Origin: Saccharothrix sp. HUAS TT1
Lineage (GTDB): Bacteria > Actinomycetota > Actinomycetes > Mycobacteriales > Pseudonocardiaceae
Assembly: GCF_040744945.1 (NCBI RefSeq)
Contig: NZ_CP160453.1
Location: forward strand, 8,184,001 to 8,248,000
Direction: 5' to 3'
Length of the DNA stretch: 64,000 bases
Shown here piece after piece: positions 4,004-49,095 of this stretch. How positions within the stretch are numbered: position 1 is the stretch's first letter; each line of letters starts with the position of its first letter. Under the pieces are notes generated by a model. The model saw nothing but the letters and a program-made list of their open reading frames with translations. It did no database searches and was not told the origin of the DNA. Made by a program: the position numbers and the translations under genes.

Positions 4004-4723
4004 GTGGGACCCGGTACGGGGAGCAGCGGGTCGTCGCGGTACCGGAAGCGGCGGCCGTGGCCGGCGCTCGTGCTGTTCCTGGTGCTCGCCGCGACAGCGG
4101 TGGTGGTCTGGAACCGCGTGTTGTCGGACGAGGGCGACGTGGACGCGGCGATCAGGTGCAACGCGCCCGGCGGGGTGCCGTTGCCCTCGGCGGGCGCTCC
4201 GGTGGCGCCGGCGGCCGAGCCGCAGCCGCGGCTGGGGTCGGTGCTGGGGCACGACGCGCTGGACCGGACCGACCCGGTGCCCGTCGCCCAGGTGCAGTTC
4301 CGCGTGTTCAACGCGAGCACCCAGCGCAACCAGGCGCGGTTCGTCGCGACGACGCTGGAAGAGCTGGGCATGAAGCAGGCCGCGGAGCCGGACAACGACC
4401 CGGTGTACCCGGCGCAGGACATGGGCTGCCGCGGCCAGATCCGGTTCGGCGCGCCCGGCGCCGGCGCGGCGCGGACGTTGAGCCTGGTGGAGCCGTGCCT
4501 GGAGCTGGTGCGCGACGAGCGCCAGGACGCGACGGTGGACGTGGCGATCGGGCAGAAGTTCAGCGAGGTGAAGCCGAACAGCGACGCCCGCAAGGTGCTC
4601 GACCAGCTGGCGGAGTGGGCGGCGCAGCAGCCCGAGCAGCAGGGCGGTCAGGCGGCGGAGGGCTCGACGGCGCTGTCGCTGAACGCCGACCACCTCAAGG
4701 CCGCCCGCGACGTCCGCTGCTGA
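4004..4723 (+). CDS. cei: Envelope integrity protein Cei
   Basis: A 239-residue protein from the GTG at 4004, preceded by GGGGAGG. A basic head (RYRKRRPW) leads into one transmembrane helix at about residues 20-37 (PALVLFLVLAATAVVVW). The rest is extracytoplasmic and includes VQFRVFNASTQRNQARFVAT and an NDPVYPAQDMGCRGQIRFG segment, the LytR_C-like region of Cei. Mycobacterial Cei (Rv2700) is reported to support envelope integrity. The neighbours DUF4193 and suhB are the same as in mycobacteria. The gene ends in a strong nested inverted repeat. Confidence 0.9.
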   Translation: MGPGTGSSGSSRYRKRRPWPALVLFLVLAATAVVVWNRVLSDEGDVDAAIRCNAPGGVPLPSAGAPVAPAAEPQPRLGSVLGHDALDRTDPVPVAQVQFRVFNASTQRNQARFVATTLEELGMKQAAEPDNDPVYPAQDMGCRGQIRFGAPGAGAARTLSLVEPCLELVRDERQDATVDVAIGQKFSEVKPNSDARKVLDQLAEWAAQQPEQQGGQAAEGSTALSLNADHLKAARDVRC

Positions 4724-4730
4724 CCCCCGC

Positions 4731-4859
4731 ACCCGCGCGAGTCGAACGCCCGGCACCCGCGAGTCGAACGCTCAGGACCCCCGAGTTCGTCATTCGGAAT
4801 GACGAACTCGGGGGTCCTGGAGGTTCGACACGCGGGACGCGAACGTTCGACTCGCGGGT
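4731..4859. repeat. Nested inverted-repeat element / terminator between cei and suhB
   Basis: The core is a perfect 22-bp stem, 4773-4794 with 4798-4819, around a 3-base loop, which would form an extremely stable hairpin. Outside it, ACCCGCGAGTCGAACG (4755-4770) is repeated in inverse at 4844-4859. A further diverged copy at about 4731-4749 (CGCGCGAGTCGAACG) matches an inverse at 4822-4835. The element fills the gap between two convergent genes and abuts the suhB stop. It probably acts as a bidirectional terminator. A related but not identical element lies at 31974-32120. Confidence 0.85.
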
Positions 4860-5677
4860 CAGACCTTGGCGAAGCCGCAGTCGACCAGGGCGGTGAAGAG
4901 GGCGTCGGCGATGCCCGGGGCGGCGGCGAAGGTGGCGTCGGCGCCCAGCTCCGGGGCTTCACCCGGCAGGTGGACGACGGCGCCCGCCTCACGGGCCAGC
5001 AGCGCGCCCGCCGCCCAGTCCCACCGGCCCAGGGTGTGCTCGGCGTAGGCGTCCAACCGCCCGGCCGCCACGGCGCACAGGTCCAGCGAGGCCGCACCGG
5101 CCCGCCGCATGTCCCGAACCCTCGTCGCGAGCCCCGCCCACGCCTCCGCCTGGCGCTGCCGGCGCTCCGGTCGGTAGGCGAAGCCGTAACCCAGGAGGGA
5201 CAGGTCCAACCGGGTGGCGTTCGACACCGCGAGCCGCCGGCCGTCCAGCCACGCCCCGCCGCCGCGCGCCGCCGTCCACACCCGGCCGCTCACCGGCTCC
5301 ACCACGGCGCCCGCCACGGACTCGCCGTCGACCTGCGCGGCGACCGAGACGGCGTAGTGCGGGATGTCGTAGAGGTAGTTCACGGTGCCGTCGATCGGGT
5401 CGACGACCCAGGTCAGGCCCTCGACGGCGGCGCTGCCGCCCTCCTCCTCCCCGATCACCGGCTCGCCCGGCCGCAGCTCGGCGAGCCGCCGCCGGACCAG
5501 CTGCTCGGACGCGCGGTCGGCCGCGGTCACCACGTCGGTGGCGCTGCTCTTGGTGTCCACATCGGTCACGGCGGCCGCGCGGGTGGCCACGGCCAGCTCA
5601 CCGGCCTCGCGGGCCACGAGCACGGCGACTTCGACCAATGAGCGGGGATCGAAACGCAACTGTTCCTCCTGCGTCAC
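4859..5677 (-). CDS. suhB: Inositol monophosphatase family protein
   Basis: About 272 residues; a Mg-dependent phosphatase of the inositol monophosphatase fold that hydrolyses myo-inositol phosphate and similar sugar phosphates. The metal-site motifs are all visible: IGEEEGG, WVVDPIDGTVNY, and the C-terminal WDWAAGALLAREAGA. The start is uncertain: GTG at 5677 (VTQEEQLRFDP), a TTG fifteen bases further in with GGAGGA before it, or the upstream GTG at 5722. The position between cei and ppgK is the mycobacterial suhB (Rv2701c) arrangement. It is divergent from ppgK. Confidence 0.92.
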   Translation of the reverse strand: MTQEEQLRFDPRSLVEVAVLVAREAGELAVATRAAAVTDVDTKSSATDVVTAADRASEQLVRRRLAELRPGEPVIGEEEGGSAAVEGLTWVVDPIDGTVNYLYDIPHYAVSVAAQVDGESVAGAVVEPVSGRVWTAARGGGAWLDGRRLAVSNATRLDLSLLGYGFAYRPERRQRQAEAWAGLATRVRDMRRAGAASLDLCAVAAGRLDAYAEHTLGRWDWAAGALLAREAGAVVHLPGEAPELGADATFAAAPGIADALFTALVDCGFAKV

Positions 5678-5754
5678 TCTCACGGGACTATCGGAGAACT
5701 GCAGGCTAATGTCTGCGGCCACGGTTACTGAATCGAGTAGGAAGGGCCACGGGG

Positions 5755-6516
5755 ATGGGCATGACCCGCGGGTTCGGCGTGGACATCGGCGGTTCCGGCA
5801 TCAAGGGCGGGCTCGTGGACCTCGAAGCGGGGGCGCTGGACGGTGAGCGGCTGCGCATCACCACACCCCAGCCGTCGACCCCGGACGCGGTCGCCGACGT
5901 GGTCGCCGAGATCGTCGAGAAGTTCAACTGGGAGGGCCCCGTCGGCGTCACGCTGCCGTGCGTGATCAAGCACGGCGTCTCGCTGTCCGCCGCCAACGTC
6001 GACAAGGCGTGGATCGGCACCGACGCCGCCCAGCTGTTCGCCGACCGCCTCGGCCGGCCCAAGGACCAGGTCGTCGTGCTGAACGACGCCGACGCGGCCG
6101 GGATCGCCGAGATGCGGTTCGGTTCCGGTGTCGACCGGGACGGCCTGGTGGTGCTGCTGACGTTCGGCACCGGCATCGGCAGCGCCCTGTTCCTGGACGG
6201 CAAGCTCGTCCCGAACACCGAGTTCGGCCACCTGGAGGTCGACGGCCACGACGCGGAGAAGCGCGCGGCGGCCTCGGTGAAGGAGGACAAGGGCCTGAGC
6301 TGGGCCGAGTGGACGCCCCGCGTCTCCAGGTACATCTCCGTGCTGGAGAACCTGATCTGGCCCGACCTGGTGATCGCGGGCGGCGGTGTCAGCAAGAAGG
6401 CCGAGAAGTGGCTGCCGCTGCTGGAGGTGCGCACCGAGGTGGTGGCCGCCGCGCTGAAGAACGACGCGGGCATCGTCGGGGCCGCGGTCGCCGCCGCGCA
6501 GGGCCTCCAGCACTGA
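5755..6516 (+). CDS. ppgK: Polyphosphate glucokinase
   Basis: A 253-residue ROK-fold kinase that phosphorylates glucose to glucose-6-phosphate using polyphosphate or ATP. The phosphate-binding [14 protein letters not shown] is near the N-terminus. [11 protein letters not shown] carries the catalytic Asp, [13 protein letters not shown] follows, and [19 protein letters not shown] is the characteristic PpgK segment. It starts at ATG 5755 (or 5761, which has GGGGA just upstream). The sequence closely follows mycobacterial PpgK (Rv2702), and the gene sits directly before sigA as there. Confidence 0.96.
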
Positions 6517-6713
6517 TTTGCGCAGCGTTCCACCTGCGAGAACGCGTGCCGGACCACCTCGGATGACGCCGGGGCGCAACGGCACGCGATTCTCGTCGTT
6601 ACAATGGAACGGTGCCCCGCTGACGAACGATCCGGCGGGGGATCCCCCGTACTCAGGCGACCGAGGTTCGCGCCCTTCGGTCGTCCTTGATCGACAGTCG
6701 CGAAAGGGCGTAC

Positions 6714-8015
<1,302 letters not shown>

Positions 8016-8040
8016 TACCCAGGCTGAAGATCACTCCAGG

Positions 8041-8083
8041 TCAGGGCCCCTCGGCTGAACAGCCGAGGGGCCCTGACTTTTTC
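8041..8083 (+). terminator. Rho-independent terminator of sigA
   Basis: A perfect 16-bp stem (8041-8056 with 8061-8076) around a GAAC loop, followed by CTTTTTC. This is the clearest intrinsic terminator in the window, 25 bases after the sigA stop. Confidence 0.92.
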
Positions 8084-8184
8084 ACCTGGTCAGGTGATGC
8101 CCTTCCTCACTCTCCGTGGTGTCCTGGTAGTGGCGCAGCCGCCGGGGGGCGGCACAGGGGACGCGCCGGCACAGGGGGAACACC

Positions 8185-9678
8185 ATGACTGGAAGCCGCA
8201 CTGAAGCACGCCGTTCGCGCCTGGACGCGCCGGACGCGGTGGACCGGCAGCCGTGGCCGGAGCACGCGAACAACGGCGAGGAGGGCGACTACCCGCACGT
8301 CGCCAACTACGGCAAGGGCCTCCCGCACGACGAGGTCGGCGAGGTCCGGCCGGAGGCGTACAACACGCTGCTGAGGGCGCTGTCCACCGGGCGGCCCGAG
8401 GACTTCGAACGGGTGCCGCTGGGCGGCGAGGTCAAGCTCGTCAACCCGCAGTCCGGGCTCGCGCGCGACGTCGAGGGCCCGCACCCGCGGTCGCTGACCA
8501 TCCCGCCCGCGCCGCGCCTGGACAGCCCGCGCAACTCGGCCGAGGCGGTCGAGCTGTACTGGATGGCGCTGACCAGGGACGTGCCGTTCACCGAGTACGA
8601 CGGGCACCCGCTGATCGCGCGGGCGGCGGCGGAGCTGTCGCGGTTGGGCGACTACCGGGCGCCGAAGGTCGACGGCCTGGTCACGCCGGCCACGATCTTC
8701 CGCGGCGACACCCGCGGCGACCTGCGCGGGCCGTTCCTGTCGCAGTTCCTGCTGCGGGACATCCAGTACGGCACGCTGCGGGTGCCCCAGCTGCACGACA
8801 CCGTGCGGCCGGACTGCGACTACCTGACCGACTTCGACGCGTGGCGCGCCGTGCAGGAGGGCGCCGCGGCGCCCGGCATCGAGCGGGACCACGACAACCG
8901 CCGCTACCCGCGCAACGCCCGCGACCTGACGAACTACGTGCACTTCGACGCGCTGTACGAGGCTTACCTCAACGCCGCGCTGATCCTGCTCGACCTGGGC
9001 GCGCCGTTCGACAACGGCAACCCGTACCGGCACTCGGCCAACCAGGTCGGCTTCGGCACGTACGGCGCGCCGCACCTGCTGTCCCTGGTGACGGAGGTGG
9101 CGACGCGGGCGTTGAAGGCGGCCTGGTTCCAGAAGTGGCACGTGCACCGCAGGTTGCGGCCGGAGGCGTTCGGCGGGCGGGTCCACGCGCACCTGTCCGG
9201 CCTGCGGGACTACGGCATGATCGACCGGGAGGTGCTGGACTCGGAGGCGGTCGAGCTGACCCACGAGCGGCACGGGTCCTACCTGCTGCCGCAGGCGTTC
9301 CCGGAGGGCTCGCCGACGCACCCGTCGTACGGCTCGGGTCACGCGACGGTGGCCGGCGCGTGCGTCACGGTGCTGAAGGCGTGGTTCGACGAGTCGTGGG
9401 TGCTGCCGGACCCGGTGGTGGTCAACGCCGACGGCACCGGCCTGGAGCCGTACGAGGGTGGCGACGTGCTCACCGTGGGTGGCGAGCTGGACAAGGTGGG
9501 CTCGAACATCCCGACCGCCCGGAACATGGCGGGCGTGCACTGGCGGAGCGACTTCACCGAGGCCGTGCTGCTCGGCGAGGCGGTCGGCATCGGGGTGCTG
9601 CGCGACCACGTCCGGGTCAACCACGAGGACGCGTCGTTCGGCCTGACCCGGTTCGACGGGCGGCGGGTCACCATCTGA
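8185..9678 (+). CDS. Vanadium-dependent haloperoxidase family protein
   Basis: A 497-residue protein of the PAP2/vanadium haloperoxidase superfamily; such enzymes use vanadate and H2O2 to oxidise halides. The vanadate-site residues fit: Lys317 and Arg325 in QKWHVHRRLRPE, Ser384-Gly385-His386 in HPSYGSGHAT, and Arg446 with catalytic-type His452 in ARNMAGVHWRSD (R-to-H spacing of six, as in fungal chloroperoxidase). QKWHVHRRLRPEAFGG and PEGSPTHPSYGSGHA look more like the algal bromoperoxidase branch. No signal peptide is visible. It is a single-gene unit after the sigA terminator, with no biosynthetic cluster around it. Halide choice cannot be read from sequence. Confidence 0.9.
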   Translation: MTGSRTEARRSRLDAPDAVDRQPWPEHANNGEEGDYPHVANYGKGLPHDEVGEVRPEAYNTLLRALSTGRPEDFERVPLGGEVKLVNPQSGLARDVEGPHPRSLTIPPAPRLDSPRNSAEAVELYWMALTRDVPFTEYDGHPLIARAAAELSRLGDYRAPKVDGLVTPATIFRGDTRGDLRGPFLSQFLLRDIQYGTLRVPQLHDTVRPDCDYLTDFDAWRAVQEGAAAPGIERDHDNRRYPRNARDLTNYVHFDALYEAYLNAALILLDLGAPFDNGNPYRHSANQVGFGTYGAPHLLSLVTEVATRALKAAWFQKWHVHRRLRPEAFGGRVHAHLSGLRDYGMIDREVLDSEAVELTHERHGSYLLPQAFPEGSPTHPSYGSGHATVAGACVTVLKAWFDESWVLPDPVVVNADGTGLEPYEGGDVLTVGGELDKVGSNIPTARNMAGVHWRSDFTEAVLLGEAVGIGVLRDHVRVNHEDASFGLTRFDGRRVTI

Positions 9679-39401: not shown

Positions 39402-42400
39402 GTGGCGGACAGGTTGCTGGTCGACGTCGGCGGTGACGGGCGGGTGTCGGTGACGGCCTGGTTGGACGGCGAGTTGCCGACGCCCGCGGGACCGGCCGTC
39501 GAGCTGGGCCGGCCCCTGGGCGAGGAGGAGTTGGACGAGCTCCGGTGGTACCTGGAGGACTACCTGCGGGCGCCGTTCGGGGTGTACGAGTCTCGGGGAC
39601 CGGAGGTCGCGGGTCGCCTGCCCGGGTGGGGTGAGGCGATGTTCGCGGCGGTGTTCGGCGCGGGGGCGGCGCGGGACGCCTACGTCGCGGTGCGGTCCCG
39701 GATGCGCGGTCCGGCGGAGATCGTGGTGCGCTCGGCGGCGCCGGGCGTGCTGGGGCTGCCGTGGGAGCTGATGCGCGACCCGGCGGTGGCCGCGCCGCTG
39801 GTGCTGGACGGGTTCGAGCTGAGCCGCAGCGTGCCGTCGGCGGCGCCGGGGACGACGTTCGAGGTCGGCGGCGACCGGCTGCGGGTGCTGATGGTCATCT
39901 CGCGGCCGGCCGGGGCGTCGGACGTCGGGTACCGGATGATCGCGCGGCCGTTGGTCCGCACGCTGGAGGTCGTGCGGGGTCGGGTGGAGCTGGTGGTGCT
40001 GCGACCGCCGACGCTGGCCGCGCTGGAACGGGCGCTGGCCGAGGCGGAGGACGCCGGGCGGCCGTTCCAGGTGGTGCACTTCGACGGGCACGGCGTGCTG
40101 ACCGGGGCCCGCGCGGCGGGGGCGGGGGCGCCGTGGAGCTTCGCCGCCGACGGCGAGGGCGTGCTGGCGTTCGAGAGGGACGACGGCGGCGGCGCCGACC
40201 ACGTGCCCGCGGAGCGGATCGGCCAGGTGCTGGCCTGCGCCAGGGTGCCGCTGGTGGTGCTCAACGCGTGCCAGTCCGGAGCGGTCGGCCGGCAGCTGGA
40301 GGCGGCGGTGGCGACCCGGCTGCTGGCCGGCGGCGCGTCCGCCGTGGTGGCCATGGCCTACAGCGTGTACGCGGTGGCCGCGGCGGAGTTCATGACCGCG
40401 TTCTACGAGCGGCTGTTCGTCGGCGACTCGGTCTCGCAGGCGGTGCGGGTGGGTCGGGCGCGGATGGCGCAGCGGCCCGAGCGGCCGAGCCTCAGGGGCC
40501 CGCTGCCGCTGGCGGACTGGGTCGTTCCGGTGCACTACCTGCGTCGTGACGTGCGGTTCCCGGAGCTGCGGAGCACGCCGGGCGCGCGTGGCGGGTTGCA
40601 GCTCGGCGAGGCGCTGGACCGCGTCCACGGCGGGGACCGCGGTGACGGGGTCGGTGACCGGCTCGCGCCCACCGGGGAGTTCGTCGGCCGGGACGGGTTG
40701 TTCCACGCGTTGGAAGTCGCCGCGCGCACGCACCGGGCGGTGGTGCTGCACGGGACCGGCGGGACCGGCAAGACCGAGCTGGCCAAGGCGTTCGGCCGGT
40801 GGTGGCGGGACACCGGGGCGGTGCGGCGGCCGGAGTGGGTGGTCTGGCACTCGTTCGAACCGGGGGTGGCGTCCTTCGGCCTGGACGGCGTGCTCGCCAC
40901 GATCGGCCTGGCCCTGTTCGGCGCCGAGTTCAGCCGCCTGGACCGCGCGCAGCGCGTGCGAGCGGTGCTCACCGCGTTGGCGAACGAGCGCATCCTCGTC
41001 ATCTGGGACAACTTCGAGTCCGTGGCCACCATGCCCGACCCCACCTCCGCCACCCCCGCCCTCAGCCGGGCGGCGCGGGAGGAGCTGCGGGACTTCCTGC
41101 GCCGGCTGACCGGGTCGGGTCTCGTGCTGATCACCAGTCGCACGGCCGAGGACTGGCTGGGCGAGGTGCGCCGCATCCGGGTCGACGGGCTGGGCCACGA
41201 CGAGGCCGTGCAGTACGCCGACCAGCTCCTGGCCCCGTACCCGACCGCCGCGGCGCGGCGCGGCGGTCGCGAGTTCGCCGACCTGCTGCACTGGCTGAAC
41301 GGTCATCCGCTGAGCATGCGGGTGATCCTCCCCCACCTGGCCGAGCACGATCCCGGGGTCGTCCTCGCCGGGCTGCGCGGGACCGCCGCGCTGCCCCGGG
41401 GCCACGGCGCCGGGCGCACGGGGTCGCTGACCGAGAGCATCGACTACTCGCTGGCCCACCTCGACCCCGGCACGCGGCGGGCCCTGCACGTGGTCTGCCT
41501 GTTCCACGGCGTGGTCGACCTCAACGTCCTCGGCGCCTTCTCCCGCACGCCGGACGCGCCGGCGCACCTGCGGGAACTGGACGCCTTCGGGTGGCAGGCG
41601 GTGCTCGACCGGGCCGCCGAGGTCGGGTTGCTGACCGCCTTGGGCGGTGTGTACGCCATCCACCCCGCGCTGCCGACCCACCTCGCCGAGGACTGGCGCA
41701 CCTCGGACCCCGACCACCACGACGACCACCGCGCCGCCGCGGAGGTCGCCCTGCTGCACGCGCACGCGACCTTCGCCCGGTGGCTGCGGCAGCAGCTCAT
41801 GAGCGGTGAGGCCGGCGTGGCGCACGCGTTGCTCGACCTGCAACGACAAACCCTGGGGCACTTCCTCGGCCTGGCGCTGGCCAACGGCCTGTGGCCGGCG
41901 GCCCAGGCGATGGCCGAGGCCCTGGACGAGTACTGGGAACTGACCGGCCAGACCGAGGAAGCCCGTGCCTGGGTCGACCGGGGCCGGCACTTCGTGGAGG
42001 ACGACGACGGCACGCCGCCGCCACTCGACACACCGGCGGGAGGGCTCTGGCTGTACCTCGTGAGCGCGCAGGCCGACAGGCACCGACGAGCGGGCGCCGT
42101 GGACGCCGCGCACACCACCTACACCGAGATCGCCGCCGTGCTGGACACGCACCCCGACACCGGGTGGAAGCGCCTCGTCACCGCGATCACCCACCACCAG
42201 CTCGGCAAGGTCGCCCACACCCGCGGACGGCTCGACGACGCGGAGCGCCTGCACCGACTGGCCATCAGCGCTTTCGAACAACTCGGCCACCAGCCAGGCC
42301 TGGCCCACTCGTACCACCAGCTCGGCATGGTCGCCCACACCCGCGGCGACCTCGACAGCGCCGGGCGCCGGTACCGCCAAGCCCTCGCCACCTCCGAACG

Positions 42401-43055
42401 AATCGGCGACCGGCCGAACACGGCCGCCTCCTTCCACCAGCTCGGGTTGGTCGCCGAACTCCGCGGGCAGCTGGACGACGCCGAGCGGTGGCACCGCCAA
42501 GCCCTCGCGATCTTCGAACAGCTCGGTGACCGGCCGAACACGGCCGCCTCCTACCACCACCTCGGGATAGTCGCCCAACTCCGCCGACTGCCCGACGACG
42601 CCGAGCAGTGGTTCCGGCAATCCCTCGTGATCTTCGAGCGGATCGGCGACCGGCACCACACGGCCGCGTCGTACCACCAGCTCGGGATGGTCGCCGAACT
42701 CCGCGAGCGGTTGGACGACGCCGAGCACTGGTACCGGCGATCCACCGCCATCAAGGAAGCGCTCGGCGACCGGCCCGGCGTCGCCCGCACCTACGCGCAG
42801 CTCGGACTGCTCGCCGAGCGGCGCGGTGACGACCGCCAAGCGCTGGACTGGGCGTTGCGCTGCATCGCGTTGTTCCCCGAGTTCCCCCATCCCTACGCCG
42901 GGACCGCGCCCCGCCAGGTGGCACGCTTGGCGGACAGGCTCGGCGAGCCCGTCCTGGAAAGCCGCTGGGTCGAACTGACCGGCGATCCGCTCCCCGACCA
43001 CATCCGCACCTACGTCCGCGACCCCGATCCCGAGAACGGCGGCGACAGCGAATGA
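39402..43055 (+). CDS. CHAT protease - STAND ATPase - TPR protein
   Basis: A 1217-residue three-part protein. The N-terminal CHAT (caspase-like) domain, about residues 130-390, has catalytic His230 in VVHFDGHGVL and Cys290 in LNACQSGAVG. A STAND/NB-ARC-like ATPase follows: Walker A LHGTGGTGKTELAK with Lys457, Walker B ILVIWDNFES with Asp536, and sensor ITSRTAEDW. The C-terminus carries six 40-residue TPR units (about residues 927-1166). GTG 39402 is preceded by GGAAGGGG at loose spacing. The plan is that of nucleotide-gated immune receptors, with TPR sensing and CHAT cleaving a target. It overlaps the next small membrane-protein gene by four bases (ATGA), so that protein is the likely partner or substrate. 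Confidence 0.92.
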   Translation: MADRLLVDVGGDGRVSVTAWLDGELPTPAGPAVELGRPLGEEELDELRWYLEDYLRAPFGVYESRGPEVAGRLPGWGEAMFAAVFGAGAARDAYVAVRSRMRGPAEIVVRSAAPGVLGLPWELMRDPAVAAPLVLDGFELSRSVPSAAPGTTFEVGGDRLRVLMVISRPAGASDVGYRMIARPLVRTLEVVRGRVELVVLRPPTLAALERALAEAEDAGRPFQVVHFDGHGVLTGARAAGAGAPWSFAADGEGVLAFERDDGGGADHVPAERIGQVLACARVPLVVLNACQSGAVGRQLEAAVATRLLAGGASAVVAMAYSVYAVAAAEFMTAFYERLFVGDSVSQAVRVGRARMAQRPERPSLRGPLPLADWVVPVHYLRRDVRFPELRSTPGARGGLQLGEALDRVHGGDRGDGVGDRLAPTGEFVGRDGLFHALEVAARTHRAVVLHGTGGTGKTELAKAFGRWWRDTGAVRRPEWVVWHSFEPGVASFGLDGVLATIGLALFGAEFSRLDRAQRVRAVLTALANERILVIWDNFESVATMPDPTSATPALSRAAREELRDFLRRLTGSGLVLITSRTAEDWLGEVRRIRVDGLGHDEAVQYADQLLAPYPTAAARRGGREFADLLHWLNGHPLSMRVILPHLAEHDPGVVLAGLRGTAALPRGHGAGRTGSLTESIDYSLAHLDPGTRRALHVVCLFHGVVDLNVLGAFSRTPDAPAHLRELDAFGWQAVLDRAAEVGLLTALGGVYAIHPALPTHLAEDWRTSDPDHHDDHRAAAEVALLHAHATFARWLRQQLMSGEAGVAHALLDLQRQTLGHFLGLALANGLWPAAQAMAEALDEYWELTGQTEEARAWVDRGRHFVEDDDGTPPPLDTPAGGLWLYLVSAQADRHRRAGAVDAAHTTYTEIAAVLDTHPDTGWKRLVTAITHHQLGKVAHTRGRLDDAERLHRLAISAFEQLGHQPGLAHSYHQLGMVAHTRGDLDSAGRRYRQALATSERIGDRPNTAASFHQLGLVAELRGQLDDAERWHRQALAIFEQLGDRPNTAASYHHLGIVAQLRRLPDDAEQWFRQSLVIFERIGDRHHTAASYHQLGMVAELRERLDDAEHWYRRSTAIKEALGDRPGVARTYAQLGLLAERRGDDRQALDWALRCIALFPEFPHPYAGTAPRQVARLADRLGEPVLESRWVELTGDPLPDHIRTYVRDPDPENGGDSE
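42181..42900 (+). repeat. Six tandem 120-bp coding repeats (TPR units)
   Basis: The segment CACCAGCTCGG recurs at exactly 120-base steps (42195, 42315, 42435, then 42555 and 42675 with small changes, and a diverged sixth at 42795). Each unit encodes one 40-residue TPR with the core YHQLGMVAHTRGDLDSA. The near identity of the middle units at DNA level implies recent duplication or gene conversion. Confidence 0.9.
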
Positions 43056-43405
43056 CCGAGAACACCGCGCCCCACCCCACCGTCGAGAGAGCGGCCCTCG
43101 CCGCCGCCGACCGCCTCGCGCCCGGCCACGGTCCCCGGCTGCGCGCCGACGTCCTCGCCGCGCTCCACGCGCCCGACCGCGCGCCGGACCGGTACCTCGA
43201 CCCGATCGCCCTGGCGTCCCTGATCGTCAGCGCCGCCACCCTCGCCTGGACGGTCTTCCAGGACCTGCGCGCCAAGACGCCGGACCCGAAGCCGGAGGTC
43301 GTCGCCCGGCGCGTCCGCCTCGAACTGACCGCCGACGACGTCAGCCCGCAGCAGCGCGACGAGGTCATCGAGATCGTCGTGGAGGAGATCACCGACGACG
43401 ACTGA
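43052..43405 (+). CDS. Small single-helix membrane protein coupled to the CHAT protein
   Basis: A 117-residue protein from ATG 43052 (ATGA overlap). It has a helical N-terminus, then one hydrophobic segment at residues 50-69 (ALASLIVSAATLAWTVF), then a basic stretch KTPDPKPEVVARRVRLEL and an acidic C-terminus ending EEITDDD. I do not know a named family. A single-pass protein fused by translation to a CHAT-STAND gene suggests a membrane effector or a protease substrate released on activation; that is inference from context. Confidence 0.82.
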   Translation: MTENTAPHPTVERAALAAADRLAPGHGPRLRADVLAALHAPDRAPDRYLDPIALASLIVSAATLAWTVFQDLRAKTPDPKPEVVARRVRLELTADDVSPQQRDEVIEIVVEEITDDD

Positions 43406-43436
43406 CGCGTGGCGCGAACCGTGTGACGATGGCCCG

Positions 43437-46373
43437 GTGCGCGTGGTGGCCGTGGTGCTGGTGCTGCTCGGGATCGGCGGGCTCGTCGCCTGGCAGGTGG
43501 GCGACGCGCTGGGGTTGGACGTGCGGCCGGCCGACGTCCCGGTCGAGCGCCCGGTGGCCGCCGCCCCGCGCCCGCTCGCCCCGCCGCCGGAGATCACCTC
43601 GATCGGCGTGCCCGACGAACCGCGGCTGCGGCTCGCCGCCACCGCCGTCGCCGACGCGCTGGCCGAACGCGGTCGTCCCCGACCGGACGTCCTGGTCGAG
43701 CGCGACCGACCGGGGCCGGGCGTCGGGGCCACCGGTCGGCTCCAGGTCCGGCTGGAAGCCGGGCTGACCGACGAGGCGTACCGGGTCGACCCGGGGCCGA
43801 CCGTCGTCGGCAGCACCCCGAACGGCGCCGCGAACGGCCTGTACGCCGTCGCCGACCGGGTCCGCGCCGGGGCCGAGGTGGTCGCCGACGGCCGGGTGGT
43901 CGCGCCCCGGCTCGGGTTGCGGATGACCGACCTGGGCGCGGTCGGCCTGCCCGCCGACCCGGCGGCGTTCACCGGCGACGACTACTCGCTGAACTCCGAC
44001 GTGGTGGGCGCGGCGATCCTGCCCGAGGCGCCCTACGTCGACCTCGCCGTGGTCGAGGAGGTCTCCCGGCAGTTCCGGGCGCTGGTGCACCACGCCCTGG
44101 CCGACGGGTACAACGCCGTGGTCGTGCCCGGTTTCCTGGAGTACGTCACGTTCGACGGTCTCGGCGTCCACCCGCCCGGCGACCCGCGGTCGGAACGCGC
44201 CGAGGCGATGGTGGCGGCGTTCGGCCCGGTCTGGGGCTACGCGCACGAGCTGGGCGTGAAGGTCTTCCTGTCCACCGACATGCTCGCCCTCTCCCCGCCG
44301 CTGCGGGCGTTCCTGGAGCGCGAGGCGGGCGGGTTGGACACCGAGGACGAACGGCTGTGGCGGGTCTACCGGGCGGGTCTGGCGGAGGTCTTCGAACGGC
44401 TGCCGCACGTGGCCGGGATGATGATCCGGATCGGCGAGGGCGGCGCGGCCTACCGGTTCGCCGGGTGGGACTTCACCTCGGAGATCGCGGTCACCACGCC
44501 GGAAGCGGTGCGGGCGATGCTGCGGGCGTTCCTCGCCGTCGCGGCCGAGCACGACAGGGAGATCGTCTTCCGCACGTGGAGCGTCGGCATCGGCGAGGTC
44601 GGCGACCTGCACACCAGCCGTGACGCCTACGCCGAGGTGCTCGGCGAGCTGCGCGACGACCGGCTGGTCGTGTCCACCAAGTACACCCTGGGCGACTTCT
44701 ACAGCCACCTGCCGCTCAACGACACCCTGCTGGTCGGCGACCACCGGCGGATCGTGGAGTTCCAGTCCCGCCGGGAGTTCGAGGGCTCCGGCGCGCTGCC
44801 GAACGACCTCGGCGAGCTGCACCGGCAGGCGCTGCGCGCGTTCCTGGCGAACCCCCGCGTGGAGGGGGTGTGGACGTGGCGGCAGGGCGGCGGCCCGCTG
44901 CTCGCCGGACCGCGGGCGCTGGACCTGCGGGCCGGTTTCTGGCAGCTCTACGACCTGAACTCCTACGTCACCGGCAGGTTGGCGTGGGACCCGGACCAGG
45001 ACCCGGCGCGGGCCACCGCGGACTGGGTGCGCCGCACGTTCTCGCACGACCCCGGTGTCGTGCACGCGGTGTGCGGCGCGCTGGCCCTGTCCCGCGAGGC
45101 GATCACCACCGGCCTGTACGTCGGCCCGTACGCGCGGCACCGGGTGCGGGCGCTCGGGCTGGAGCCGCCGCCGATGATGTGGATCTTCGAGTGGGACATC
45201 CCGACCGGTGACAGCGCCACCCTGGGCACGGTCTACGCGGTGGGGCGCGACCGGGTGGACGAGGCGGTCGCGGAGGGCGCGGCGGCGATCGGCACGGCGC
45301 GCCGGATGCGCGACCTGGTCGGCGCGACCGACCCGGCGGGCTGGCGGGACCCGGCGCTGCGCGAGCGGTTCGTCGCCGCGCTCGACTACCAGGTGGACCT
45401 GTTCGGGGTGCTGGCCGCCTACCGGACCTCCGCGCTGCGGCACGTCCAGTGGCTCGACACCGGCGATCCCCGCGCCCGTGAGGCGGCACGGGCGGCAGCG
45501 GCCGAGTACCGGACTGCGCGCGCGGAACACCTGCGCCGCTACGGGGACGACCTGGCGCTGCCCGCCTACAACCTCACCGCCGCCGACATCGGCCAGGCCA
45601 GGGCGGCGCGCGACGAGCCGATGGCGTGGACGGCGCGCGGCGTGCTGCTGGGGCTGGTGCTCCTGTTCGCTCTGGGGTGGCGCAAACCGTGGGCGCGGGC
45701 GTTGACCAGGCCGTGGCGCCGGGTCGAGGCGTCACGCGCGGACCGGGTGCTGGTGTGGGCCGTGCCCGCGGTCGCGGTCGTGCTGAGCCGGGCGGTGCTC
45801 ACGTGGTTCGCCGCACCGGCCCACCTGCTGCCGGTGCTGGGCGCGTGGGCGCTGTTCGCCGCCGTGCTGTGGCCGGCCCGGTCGAGGGCGCCGCGGTTGG
45901 CTGCGGCGGTGGGCGCGGTCGTGTTGGTGCGCTCGGTGCTGCTGCTGGGCGTGCTGGCGGTGCGCGGGCCCGGTTACTACTGGTTCGAGTTCTGGACCGA
46001 CCCGGCGGCGCGGGCGGTGTACGTGGCGGTGGCCTTCGCGGCGTTCGCCGGGACGTTCGTGGCGGCTTACGCGGCGCTGCGCGACGGCCTGGGCCGTGCG
46101 GCTGCCGCCGGACGTGTGCTGGCGGCGGTCGGTGCGCCGCTGGCCGCGTTGGGCGCACTGGTGACCGCGCTCGGCCTGGACCGCGCGCTGACGGCGTGGA
46201 ACGACCAGCTGGCCCTGCTGCCGTGGGGCTTGTCGCGCATCCTCGGCATCAGCGCCCACCTGGGCATCCCGACCGCGCTGCCGGTGTACGCGCTGGTCGC
46301 GGGTGCCGTGGCGGTGTCGGTCGGCGCCGTGCTCATGCTCAGCCGAGTTCGGCCAACTTCTCCCTCGTCTTGA
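43437..46373 (+). CDS. Large membrane protein with a glycosidase-like (GH67/GH20-type) domain
   Basis: A 978-residue protein from GTG 43437, 31 bases after the previous stop; the preceding TGACGAT suggests its own, perhaps leaderless, promoter. A signal-anchor helix (residues 2-20) is followed by an N-terminal domain with GSTPNGAANGLYAVADRV, the pattern of GH20b/GH67N domains. A barrel-like catalytic region has GFLEYVTFDGLG, MIRIGEGGAAYRFAGWD, IVFRTWSVGIGEVGD and MMWIFEWDIPTGD. From about residue 730 there are six to seven membrane helices. Glycosidase assignment is tentative; a glucuronidase role would suit the uronate cluster nearby. It overlaps the convergent STAND gene by 35 bases. Confidence 0.78.
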   Translation: MRVVAVVLVLLGIGGLVAWQVGDALGLDVRPADVPVERPVAAAPRPLAPPPEITSIGVPDEPRLRLAATAVADALAERGRPRPDVLVERDRPGPGVGATGRLQVRLEAGLTDEAYRVDPGPTVVGSTPNGAANGLYAVADRVRAGAEVVADGRVVAPRLGLRMTDLGAVGLPADPAAFTGDDYSLNSDVVGAAILPEAPYVDLAVVEEVSRQFRALVHHALADGYNAVVVPGFLEYVTFDGLGVHPPGDPRSERAEAMVAAFGPVWGYAHELGVKVFLSTDMLALSPPLRAFLEREAGGLDTEDERLWRVYRAGLAEVFERLPHVAGMMIRIGEGGAAYRFAGWDFTSEIAVTTPEAVRAMLRAFLAVAAEHDREIVFRTWSVGIGEVGDLHTSRDAYAEVLGELRDDRLVVSTKYTLGDFYSHLPLNDTLLVGDHRRIVEFQSRREFEGSGALPNDLGELHRQALRAFLANPRVEGVWTWRQGGGPLLAGPRALDLRAGFWQLYDLNSYVTGRLAWDPDQDPARATADWVRRTFSHDPGVVHAVCGALALSREAITTGLYVGPYARHRVRALGLEPPPMMWIFEWDIPTGDSATLGTVYAVGRDRVDEAVAEGAAAIGTARRMRDLVGATDPAGWRDPALRERFVAALDYQVDLFGVLAAYRTSALRHVQWLDTGDPRAREAARAAAAEYRTARAEHLRRYGDDLALPAYNLTAADIGQARAARDEPMAWTARGVLLGLVLLFALGWRKPWARALTRPWRRVEASRADRVLVWAVPAVAVVLSRAVLTWFAAPAHLLPVLGAWALFAAVLWPARSRAPRLAAAVGAVVLVRSVLLLGVLAVRGPGYYWFEFWTDPAARAVYVAVAFAAFAGTFVAAYAALRDGLGRAAAAGRVLAAVGAPLAALGALVTALGLDRALTAWNDQLALLPWGLSRILGISAHLGIPTALPVYALVAGAVAVSVGAVLMLSRVRPTSPSS

Positions 46374-49095
46374 CCGTGTTCGGGTGATCCGCGCCCAACG
46401 TCCGCGCCTCCACCTCCAGCACCGCCCGGTACTCCGCCTCCGCCTCGTCCCGCCGGTCGAGGTCGGCCAGCACGCCGGCCAGGTTGTAGCGAGTCGCGAG
46501 GGTGCGGTGGTGCTCCGCGCCGAGCACCTGGGTCCGCAGCGCGATCGTCGTCCGGTACTCGGCCTCGGCTTCATCGTGCCGTCCCTGGTCGTACAGCAGG
46601 CCGGCCAGGCAGTGCCTGCTGACCAGGGTATCCGGGTGCAGCGGCCCCAGCACCCGCTCCTCGGCGGCGATCACCTCCCGGTGGTCTCGCTCCGCCGCTT
46701 CGACGTCACCGCGACCCGCGCGGGCGTGGGCCAACCGGTGCCGGATCGCCAGCAGCACGGCATGTTCCGCGCCCAGCAGGCGCTCGTACACGGGCAGCAG
46801 GGCCAGGTAGCCGGCTTCCGCCTCTTCGAAGCGCCGCTGCTTGCTGTGGATCTGCGCCAGGCACGACCGGGTATTCAGCGTGTTCGGGTGCGTCGGGCCG
46901 AGCACGCGCTCCTGCGCCTCGATCACCCGGCGGTGCTCTTCCTCGGCGGCCTCCAGGTCGTCCTGGTATTCGAGCAGGTGCCCCAACTCGTGCCGGATGC
47001 TCAAGGTGATCGGGTGCTCCAAGCCGAAGATCCGGGAGCTGTCCATGACTGCCGCCCGCGACTCTGCCACCGCCTCGGCCAACCGACCCCGCAGCCGCAT
47101 CACCTCCGCCAGCAGGCGCCTCGCGCCCAGCGGCGGCGTGCGGTCGCCCGTGCTCCGACTCGCGATCACCGCCAGCACGTCGCGGACCTCCGCTTCGGCG
47201 TCGTCCAATCGCCCCAGCTCCTTGAGGGTGTCGGCGAGGCAGGTGCGAACGTTCGTGACCTGAACGTGCTCCGGCCCGAGCTGCCGGGTCATGGCCGCGA
47301 CGACGTCGCGGTGCTCCGACTCCGACTCGGCCAGCCCACCGCGAGCCTCCACCAGGTCGGCGAGGTCGTGCCTGATCCGCAGGGTGCTGATGTCCGTCTC
47401 ACCCTGCGCACGCGTCCTCCCGGCGAGCACACCGCGGAACTCGGCCTCGGCCTCGTCCCACCGCCCCTGTTCGCGCAGGACGCCGGCGAGGCACTTGCGG
47501 CTGTCGAGCGTGTCGGAGTCGTCCGCGCCCAGCACCCTCGTCTGGTCCGCGACCAGGGTCCGGTGCTCGGCCTCCGCGCCCGCCAGGTCGCCCTTGCCCT
47601 GGAGGAGGTGGCCCAGGGCGTGCCGCGCCGCGAACGTCTCCCGGTGGTCCGCGCCCACCGCCCCGGTGCTCAGGTCGATGGCACGGCGGTACAGGGCCTC
47701 GGCCACCTGGTGGGAGCCGATCTCACCGGTGAAACCGGCACCGTAGTAGAGCAGCGTCGCGGTCTCCAGGTCCAGGTCGGAATCGTCGTGCGGACCGAGG
47801 TCGGCCAGGTGCGGCAGCACCGATCGCCAGCGCGGCCAGGTGGCGGGGTCGCTGTGGTCGAGGTCCTTCGTGGCCGCGCGGAGCAGCCGGGCGACCAGTG
47901 CCCGGTACGCCTGCCGGTTCTGCTCGTAGTCCGGTTGGTGGCGGTTGGCGTCGCGGACCACCGGGTGGACCACGACGCTCGACCCCAGCACGTCGAGCAG
48001 GCCGACCTCCTGGAGCGCCTTCAGCAGCACCGACAGCTGGACCGCGGTGACGTCCCGGAGCAGGTCCGAGGTCGCCATCACGGTGGCGTCGAGGACGAAC
48101 GCGGGCACCGGGGCCTCGGCGAAGGTCGAGACCAGGCGCAGCAGTTGCCGCGTCTGCGGTTGCCCCCGCTCGGCGAGCAGGTCCATCGACATCTCCCACG
48201 TGCGGCTCAGGGACTCCCTCGGGGAGGCGGACTCGCCCTCGGTGAGCTCGGTGAACCGCTCGTCCCAGCGCTCCTGGTACGCCTTGAACGTGGTCGGCGG
48301 TTCCAGGCCCGGCAGGGCGAGGGCGTCCTTGGCCACGGCCAGGTAGCGGCCGGCCAGGCGCAGGGCCAGCGGTAGGCCGCCGAGGCGCCGGGCGAGTGCG
48401 GCGGCGTCCTCCGGTGAGCCCGCGTCGGCCAGGTCGAGCAGCACCTGCGCGCCGTCCTCGGGGTCGAGCTGGCGCACGTGGTGCACCCGCGCGGCCGGTG
48501 GCCAGCCGGCGCCGGCCCGGCTGGTGACCAGGACCGACCCCGTCGACCTCGGCAGCCGCAGCCAGCCGTTGCCGTCACCCACCCGGCGGCCCGACGCGGC
48601 CAGCACGTCCGGCTCGTCGGCGTTGTCGAAGACCAGCACCCACGGCTCGGCCTGGCGGTCGAGGTTGCGCCACAGCAGCTCGATCGCCGACCCGGCCCGC
48701 CCCGCCCACGCCTCCCCCACCTCGTGCGAGTCGGCCCCCGCTTGCAAGGCCACCTCCGCCAGGCCCGCCACCAGGCTGTCGCGGGAGGAGGCGTCCACCC
48801 ACCAGACCTTCGGCAGGTTCCGGACCGCCTCCAGGGCGACCGTCGTCTTGCCGAAACCACCGCCGGCGGCCAGGACGGCGATCGAGCCGCCCAGGTCGTC
48901 GGTCACCTCGGCCACCAGCTCGGACCTGCCGCGCACCCGGTGGTTGAGCCGGCCGAGCGGCGGGGCCACCGACGTGCCCGAGGCGATCGGCGGCCGTCGT
49001 TCGGCGTAGTAGTGGTTGGTCGTATGGTTGATGTCGCGCAGGGCCTGCTCGGCGACACCGCCGAACGCCGCTTCAGCCCGCTGGGTGCCGTCCAC
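46339..49095 (-). CDS. STAND (NB-ARC-type) ATPase with kinesin-light-chain-like TPRs
   Basis: A 918-residue protein from GTG 49095. A short N-terminus of about 50 residues (DINHTTNHYYAERRPP) precedes the ATPase: Walker A LAAGGGFGKTTVAL with Lys83, Walker B WVLVFDNADEPDV, sensor VLVTSRAGAGW and GLPLALRLAGRYLA. A winged-helix region follows, then about ten 42-residue TPR units (for example LGPTHPNTLNTRSCLAQIHS). No catalytic effector domain is visible in the N-terminus, so it may act through a partner or by oligomerising. Such proteins are common signalling or immunity ATPases in actinomycetes. Confidence 0.88.
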   Translation of the reverse strand: MDGTQRAEAAFGGVAEQALRDINHTTNHYYAERRPPIASGTSVAPPLGRLNHRVRGRSELVAEVTDDLGGSIAVLAAGGGFGKTTVALEAVRNLPKVWWVDASSRDSLVAGLAEVALQAGADSHEVGEAWAGRAGSAIELLWRNLDRQAEPWVLVFDNADEPDVLAASGRRVGDGNGWLRLPRSTGSVLVTSRAGAGWPPAARVHHVRQLDPEDGAQVLLDLADAGSPEDAAALARRLGGLPLALRLAGRYLAVAKDALALPGLEPPTTFKAYQERWDERFTELTEGESASPRESLSRTWEMSMDLLAERGQPQTRQLLRLVSTFAEAPVPAFVLDATVMATSDLLRDVTAVQLSVLLKALQEVGLLDVLGSSVVVHPVVRDANRHQPDYEQNRQAYRALVARLLRAATKDLDHSDPATWPRWRSVLPHLADLGPHDDSDLDLETATLLYYGAGFTGEIGSHQVAEALYRRAIDLSTGAVGADHRETFAARHALGHLLQGKGDLAGAEAEHRTLVADQTRVLGADDSDTLDSRKCLAGVLREQGRWDEAEAEFRGVLAGRTRAQGETDISTLRIRHDLADLVEARGGLAESESEHRDVVAAMTRQLGPEHVQVTNVRTCLADTLKELGRLDDAEAEVRDVLAVIASRSTGDRTPPLGARRLLAEVMRLRGRLAEAVAESRAAVMDSSRIFGLEHPITLSIRHELGHLLEYQDDLEAAEEEHRRVIEAQERVLGPTHPNTLNTRSCLAQIHSKQRRFEEAEAGYLALLPVYERLLGAEHAVLLAIRHRLAHARAGRGDVEAAERDHREVIAAEERVLGPLHPDTLVSRHCLAGLLYDQGRHDEAEAEYRTTIALRTQVLGAEHHRTLATRYNLAGVLADLDRRDEAEAEYRAVLEVEARTLGADHPNTVKTREKLAELG

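Follow-up and report, generated by a model that had tools for sequence, protein, structure and literature searches.

In Saccharothrix sp. HUAS TT1, the gene for a large protein with a CHAT protease domain, a STAND NTPase domain and tetratricopeptide repeats (TPRs) overlaps the gene for a small single-pass membrane protein, and the two genes make up one conserved module, the kind of which is known and the partner family of which has no name. The pair lies in a stretch of 64,000 nucleotides (G000:C1:8184001-8248000, hereafter the window) of a genome of 8.7 Mb. An earlier note, made from the letters of the window alone, had proposed a candidate immune or cell-death module in which the small protein is a membrane effector or a substrate freed by the protease. 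The pair does look like an immune or cell-death switch, akin in design to two-gene systems already described, and its anatomy is best read as a CHAT-NLR module tied to the membrane. The conserved pairing and the membrane-linked anatomy have stood up to further analysis; the defence-island context has not, and there are closer parallels that the note did not name, which are the EACC1-caspase, CHAT-NLR/gasdermin and BELL-NLR systems.

Linkage of the large and small genes

Viewed from the small gene, a large gene or a piece of one adjoins it on the same strand at all 28 distinct confident loci. These loci comprise 14 found by scanning contigs, the window, loci in members of the same genus and loci reached otherwise, with L014/L064, L023/L058, L025/L132, L006/L053, L007/L054 and L013/L060 counted once each. 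All 14 scanned loci have the large protein or its cut-off end directly upstream, and at four loci (L017, L020, L056 and L132) the contig includes the large gene only in its C-terminal part. At 25 of the 28 loci the small gene lies 3' of the large gene, and at three (L053, L066 and L086) 5' of it. The candidate start of the small gene overlaps the stop of the large gene by four bases in the window and at L013, L054, L057 and L078, and by one base at L022, while most other small genes begin 2-38 bases past the stop; at L054 the motif AAGGAGG occurs shortly 5' of the small-gene start. Seven weak matches to the small protein, four in its own genome (E 0.076-0.85) and three in relatives (E 0.002-0.008), were dropped. 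No large gene was found within ~1.5 kb of any of them, and they are taken as chance matches or as too distant to judge.

The pairing was also followed from the large gene, using the CHAT and STAND part only, in surveys of the class (394 genomes), of the family to which G490 belongs (250 genomes) and of the G488 family (394 genomes). Two of these three surveys were centred on known carriers of the pair (G490 and G488), and each genome search scores few first-look candidates, such that absence is weaker evidence than presence. With the line between close and divergent large genes set post hoc at E <= 1e-180, there were 18 close loci, one of which (G683) runs off the contig edge inside the gene. 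The small gene adjoins 14 of the 17 readable close large genes (counting G113, where a contig break interrupts the gene), or 9 of 12 when the five loci known beforehand (G000, G488, G490, G491 and G492:C374) are omitted. None of the seven divergent large genes has an adjacent small gene (G944, G922, G134, G255, G367 and two paralogs in G485 at 36-37% identity). The earlier note had staked its proposal on co-occurrence of the small gene with the CHAT gene in relatives, and the pairing is supported from both sides.

Distances among the large proteins parallel those among the small proteins in 20 non-redundant pairs (r 0.83, with none of 5000 permutations as high) and in all 23 pairs (r 0.85, 0/5000). 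This agreement of the matrices shows co-inheritance of both genes, to which common descent alone contributes. That the gene pair is real and not a chance arrangement of reading frames follows from the many homologs of both proteins and from the high GC content at third codon positions (GC3), which is 0.94 in the large gene and 0.97 in the small one. Within the genus, 4 of 25 genomes carry the pair, counting the own one; in the class sample the small gene and a close large gene each occur in two of 394 genomes, and these are the same two, one of them the own genome. The pair is accessory and patchy in the manner of accessory conflict genes, and it is widespread in the sense that it is found in many soil or multicellular actinobacteria.

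Anatomy of the two proteins

The large protein has both the Pfam profile match and the His/Cys dyad of CHAT proteases, as well as the Walker A/B NTPase followed by superstructure-forming repeats that defines STAND/NLR NTPases (Table 1). It is an NLR-like receptor, built like the immune receptors of animals and plants, with a caspase-type protease. The Pfam NACHT match scores 27.5 bits against a cut-off of 26.7. Residues His230, Cys290 and Lys457 are where the earlier note had placed them, and among 1082 homologs at E <= 1e-60 the best 120, self included, are identical at H226, D228, H230, N288, C290, G451, K457 and D536. That protease and NTPase residues are so strictly conserved speaks against the large protein being a structural component alone. 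The six TPRs of the earlier note are a fair count, although the sixth repeat is weak: six units of 40 residues are readable in the sequence, and a repeat model made from the first five of them finds five. Across 100 full-length homologs the number of TPRs, counted with a repeat model of our own, varies from 3 to 11.

The small protein likewise has the length, the ATGA overlap and the single predicted membrane helix that had been attributed to it, with a hydropathy peak of 1.85 over the 19 residues 51-69. One search returned 38 homologs at E <= 0.01, own included, and a profile search returned 944 proteins at E <= 0.001 among 7996 scored candidates. In the best 120 of these 944 there is no Pfam domain, and the source names are all hypothetical bar one doubtful label; the closest named relatives come from Actinokineospora and Saccharothrix. 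By these searches the small protein is one of about a thousand members of a real family for which Pfam, NCBIfam and PADLOC have no model. The protein of the window has no match in PHROGs at E <= 0.01, and one of the 38 members resembles a holin (E 9.6e-4 in PHROGs, 0.027 in Pfam). The viral contigs searched gave no relative.

Invariant positions of the family are mostly inside the hydrophobic helix, where mean column conservation is 0.75, against values of 0.63 for the N-terminal pair of helices, 0.65 for the linker and 0.52 for the C-terminal part. AlphaFold2, run on the family alignment, places five helices at residues 9-26, 29-39, 51-75, 81-91 and 99-115 (mean predicted local distance difference test score, pLDDT, 81), and the fold is predicted to be all-alpha. 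Lysine plus arginine residues in the flanks of the helix average 3.1 on the C-terminal side versus 2.0 on the other, and since positive charge is slightly higher on the C-terminal side, a cytoplasmic C-terminus is weakly favoured.

Table 1. Positions of the gene pair, its domains and motifs, and the gene that follows it in the window
Feature	Position	Strand	Details
CHAT-STAND(NACHT)-TPR gene	39402..43055	+	1217 aa; GTG start; homologs align from residue 1
CHAT (caspase-like) domain, residues 112-361	39735..40484	+	Pfam PF12770, E 1.1e-20
Catalytic His230 codon, within HFDGHG	40089..40091	+	H in 120/120 listed homologs, self included
Catalytic Cys290 codon, within NACQS	40269..40271	+	C in 120/120 listed homologs
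STAND/NACHT NTPase, residues ~426-620	40677..41261	+	Pfam PF05729, E 3.2e-6, residues 445-608
Walker A GTGGTGKT, residues 451-458	40752..40775	+	K457 in 120/120 listed homologs
Walker B strand ILVIWD, residues 531-536	40992..41009	+	D536 in 120/120 listed homologs
TPR array, residues ~931-1160, 40-residue period	42192..42881	+	Pfam TPR_12, E 9.7e-55
Start/stop overlap ATGA of the large and small genes	43052..43055	+
Small single-pass membrane protein gene	43052..43405	+	117 aa; ATG start
Hydrophobic helix of the small protein, residues 51-75	43202..43276	+	predicted helix; best-conserved segment
Gene 3' of the pair	43437..46373	+	978 aa; glycosyl hydrolase 67 C-terminal match; hydrophobic C-terminal stretches

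Possible functions of the module

In NLRs, binding of a ligand opens the NTPase, and oligomerisation then activates the effector domain. In the module described here, the variable TPRs would sense a ligand, whereupon the STAND NTPase would switch, probably oligomerising on ATP, and this switching would activate the N-terminal CHAT cysteine protease. The small protein would be a dedicated membrane-side partner with one conserved helix and small helical domains on either side, which the active CHAT domain would cleave, or recruit and remodel, at the membrane. The hydrophobic helix, once freed or clustered, could then damage the membrane and so kill a hyphal compartment that is infected or under stress. 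Ligand sensing, oligomerisation, cleavage, membrane damage, cell death and a role in defence are steps that we infer, and an immune function is plausible by analogy. That the small protein is an executioner acted on by the activated CHAT domain at the membrane is the reading we favour, at a probability of roughly 0.42 and narrowly ahead of a role as a membrane anchor or sensor. It draws on the pairing, the swapped gene order, the congruent matrices, the stop overlaps, the invariant catalytic residues and the conserved helix, as well as on the patchy distribution, the variable TPR number and the analogy with CHAT proteases that act with pore-formers. The further proposal of a new, non-gasdermin class of all-alpha membrane executioners made up of the small proteins, which would be released or clustered by the CHAT domain built into the NLR, is doubtful. 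If it were true, mycelial actinobacteria would have a pyroptosis-like death pathway that uses about a thousand unannotated partner proteins. Should the CHAT-NLR cut or trigger the small protein, the pair would make up a compact path from receptor through protease to a non-gasdermin executioner, widespread in multicellular actinobacteria. It would then also link many CHAT receptors with a single family of membrane proteins, nameless in the libraries searched, and provide a two-protein system that is directly testable.

Several observations weigh against the executioner reading. Three of the 17 close large genes (in G837, G871 and G876) have no adjacent small gene, and none was found elsewhere in the genomes of G837 and G871. 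The small gene of G876 is located away from the whole large gene, which has no small neighbour; at L131:8393-9347 it stands intact next to a large-gene remnant of which residues 1-50 and 1048-1205 are left. The large open reading frame (ORF) ends 795 bases ahead of the small gene at L012 and 546 bases ahead of it at L083, and therefore some loci of the set may be in decay or wrongly assembled. At L012 (positions 4326-7998, Actinokineospora diospyrosa) the large ORF is broken after about residue 866 and the small gene is intact; the deposited homolog for this species is a protein of 828 residues. The best 19-residue hydropathy ranges from 1.07 to 2.09 across the 38 members (median 1.64) and is modest in some, so that constant insertion cannot be taken for granted in all of them. 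No cleavage site was identified in the small protein. A search of its predicted fold against the PDB gave no match at E <= 0.001, and therefore no pore-former fold was seen. The small protein of the window has no match at E <= 0.1 in Pfam, NCBIfam or PADLOC, and the PADLOC matches of the large protein are to generic TPR models and to weak CHAT or other models only. The earlier note had looked to a defence-island context, of which there is no signal among 95 scanned neighbours of the pair, a result for which the background rate is unmeasured.

Alternatively, the small protein could be a membrane anchor, or a sensor of membrane state, that positions or triggers the protease, in which case the substrate would be another protein or the protease itself; this is a credible reading, if still a tentative one. 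A helix that is the best conserved part of the protein, joined to a C-terminal part that is the least conserved, fits an interaction or sensing helix. A precedent is EACC1, which has one transmembrane helix with short alpha+beta extensions, is encoded beside a caspase gene and has been proposed to be a membrane sensor (PMC7159879, Kaur et al. 2020). Other transmembrane proteins next to divergent large genes, at L062, L087 and L088, would fit interchangeable anchors. By profile, however, the small protein is not an EACC1 homolog: none of its 38 family members matches EACC1 (PF19953) at E <= 0.1, and profile-profile comparison against an alignment made here from 15 EACC1 proteins gives a probability of 1.7%. 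The swapped gene orders are neutral on this question. It is less likely that the pair is a signalling or developmental regulator, a membrane-tethered regulated protease serving, for example, hyphal differentiation. Such a role would suit the neighbours of the pair, which are mainly ordinary metabolic and regulatory genes that differ by locus and give no defence signal. It would also suit the finding that other STAND-TPR proteins of actinobacteria are regulators or belong to systems for ribosomally synthesised and post-translationally modified peptides (RiPPs), the large protein having matches below the cut-off to the NCBIfam AfsR, HaaT and FxSxx TPR models. Against it speak the patchy presence of the pair (4/25 in the genus, 2/394 in the class sample), which does not resemble that of a core developmental gene, the varying TPR number, and the distant homologs near integrase genes on cyanobacterial plasmids typed conjugative. 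Least probable by far is a pair like toxin and antitoxin, the small membrane protein being toxic and the large protein keeping it in check. The close linkage of a small hydrophobic protein to a regulator and the start/stop overlap are as expected of such a pair, but at L131 the small gene has stayed intact next to a large gene that is deleted (although G876 has another large gene), and the strictly conserved protease and NTPase residues would be unneeded for simple restraint.

The nearest described systems are EACC1-caspase, CHAT-NLR/gasdermin, BELL-NLR and Craspase. In Craspase (type III-E) the protease Csx29 is paired with gRAMP/Cas7-11, and Csx30 is the substrate; Csx29 is not known to have a STAND domain. 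Csx29 resembles the large protein in being a CHAT cysteine protease with TPRs under the control of a sensor (PMC10028731), whereas activation here would be by a ligand of the TPRs and not by target RNA. The EACC1-caspase systems are alike in combining a small protein with a single transmembrane helix and the gene for a caspase-superfamily protease, in being prevalent in actinobacteria (PMC7159879) and in having at times a STAND domain, nSTAND1 (PMC8195603). They differ in gene order, with EACC1 encoded 5' of its protease and the small gene here mostly 3' (25/28), and in that the extensions of EACC1 are alpha+beta, while the small protein is all-helical in a model with a pLDDT of 81; the protease partner here is moreover a CHAT-STAND-TPR protein. 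A search of the own genome for EACC1 gave nothing at E <= 0.01. In fungi, CHAT proteases act on pore-formers encoded next to them, and in bacteria they are part of gasdermin systems; in these two-gene clusters, as here, CHAT is carried on an NLR or TPR receptor beside the gene of a membrane-acting protein (PMC10197012, PMC12881547). The partner here differs in having 117 residues and one transmembrane helix, and it has neither a Pfam gasdermin match nor, at the threshold given above, a fold match in the PDB. BELL-NLR systems share the adjoining or overlapping genes, the small alpha-helical protein with a hydrophobic helix, the NLR and the occurrence in multicellular bacteria (PMC7889193), but here the N-terminus of the NLR is CHAT itself. 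A motif of the BELL/BASS type, shared by the C-terminus of the small protein and the N-terminus of the large one, was sought by simple local alignment, without published motif models, and was rejected as own pairs score the same as shuffled ones (21.1 and 21.1, 23 pairs). CHAT and NACHT domains occur more generally in diversified conflict systems (PMC10907252). Among the matches listed from the open-licence literature there was no description of this gene pair, which may be described elsewhere.

Genomic surroundings and divergent loci

With a simple GC3-based caller, in which some frames are perhaps wrong, 136 neighbours were called within 4.5 kb at 21 loci, and the 95 that were scanned matched nine PADLOC families at E <= 1e-10, with one member each. 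Seven of the nine trace to three neighbours, which are a helicase-like, a GlgB-like and a TPR protein; the remaining two, PDC-S07 and mad2, were not traced to a neighbour. Three of the 95 match phage integrases. The neighbours are thus mostly of the ordinary metabolic and regulatory kinds noted above, with some contact with mobile elements.

The gene 3' of the pair in the window starts 31 bases past the small gene and was considered as a further member of the module. It is present in 3 of 24 genus mates, where homology begins at 43407-43418, directly past the small gene, and the pair is not beside it; membership was rejected since these homologs stand without the pair. Past this gene, on the minus strand (46339-49095), is a 918-residue NTPase-TPR protein that matches the NCBIfam FxSxx-COOH system TPR model (343 bits against a cut-off of 300). 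Neither tRNA genes nor Rfam genes were found within the window.

In L064, which comes from the same genome as L014, the large and small proteins are in a single ORF frame. As a gene fusion this candidate was rejected, as the junction retains a ribosome-binding site and a TTG start and differs from L054 by one base in length. The single frame may be an indel or an assembly error, and it was given no weight. In a predicted structure of its TPR-plus-small piece, the TPRs are well folded and the linker is of low confidence.

Some divergent loci have other short or transmembrane neighbours, which suggests that partners may be exchanged. At L062 an ORF of 158 residues with one hydrophobic helix (7798-8274, minus strand) precedes a divergent CHAT-STAND-TPR gene; it has an EACC1-like look, yet no Pfam EACC1 match. 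A different transmembrane protein is encoded 5' of the divergent large genes at L087 and L088, and its C-terminal domain is similar between the two loci. Distant homologs (~36%) are found near integrase genes on the cyanobacterial plasmids typed conjugative (L089 and L090), where the 5' gene of 164-175 residues is alike in both and is without a convincing transmembrane helix. On other cyanobacterial plasmids, look-alike proteins of 135-148 residues with hydrophobic stretches occur near CHAT/TPR genes (L093:10612-11019 and L094:10011-10457). A homolog on an Acidobacteria plasmid has separate CHAT and TPR genes, which are followed by a gene for 150 residues with a hydrophobic segment.

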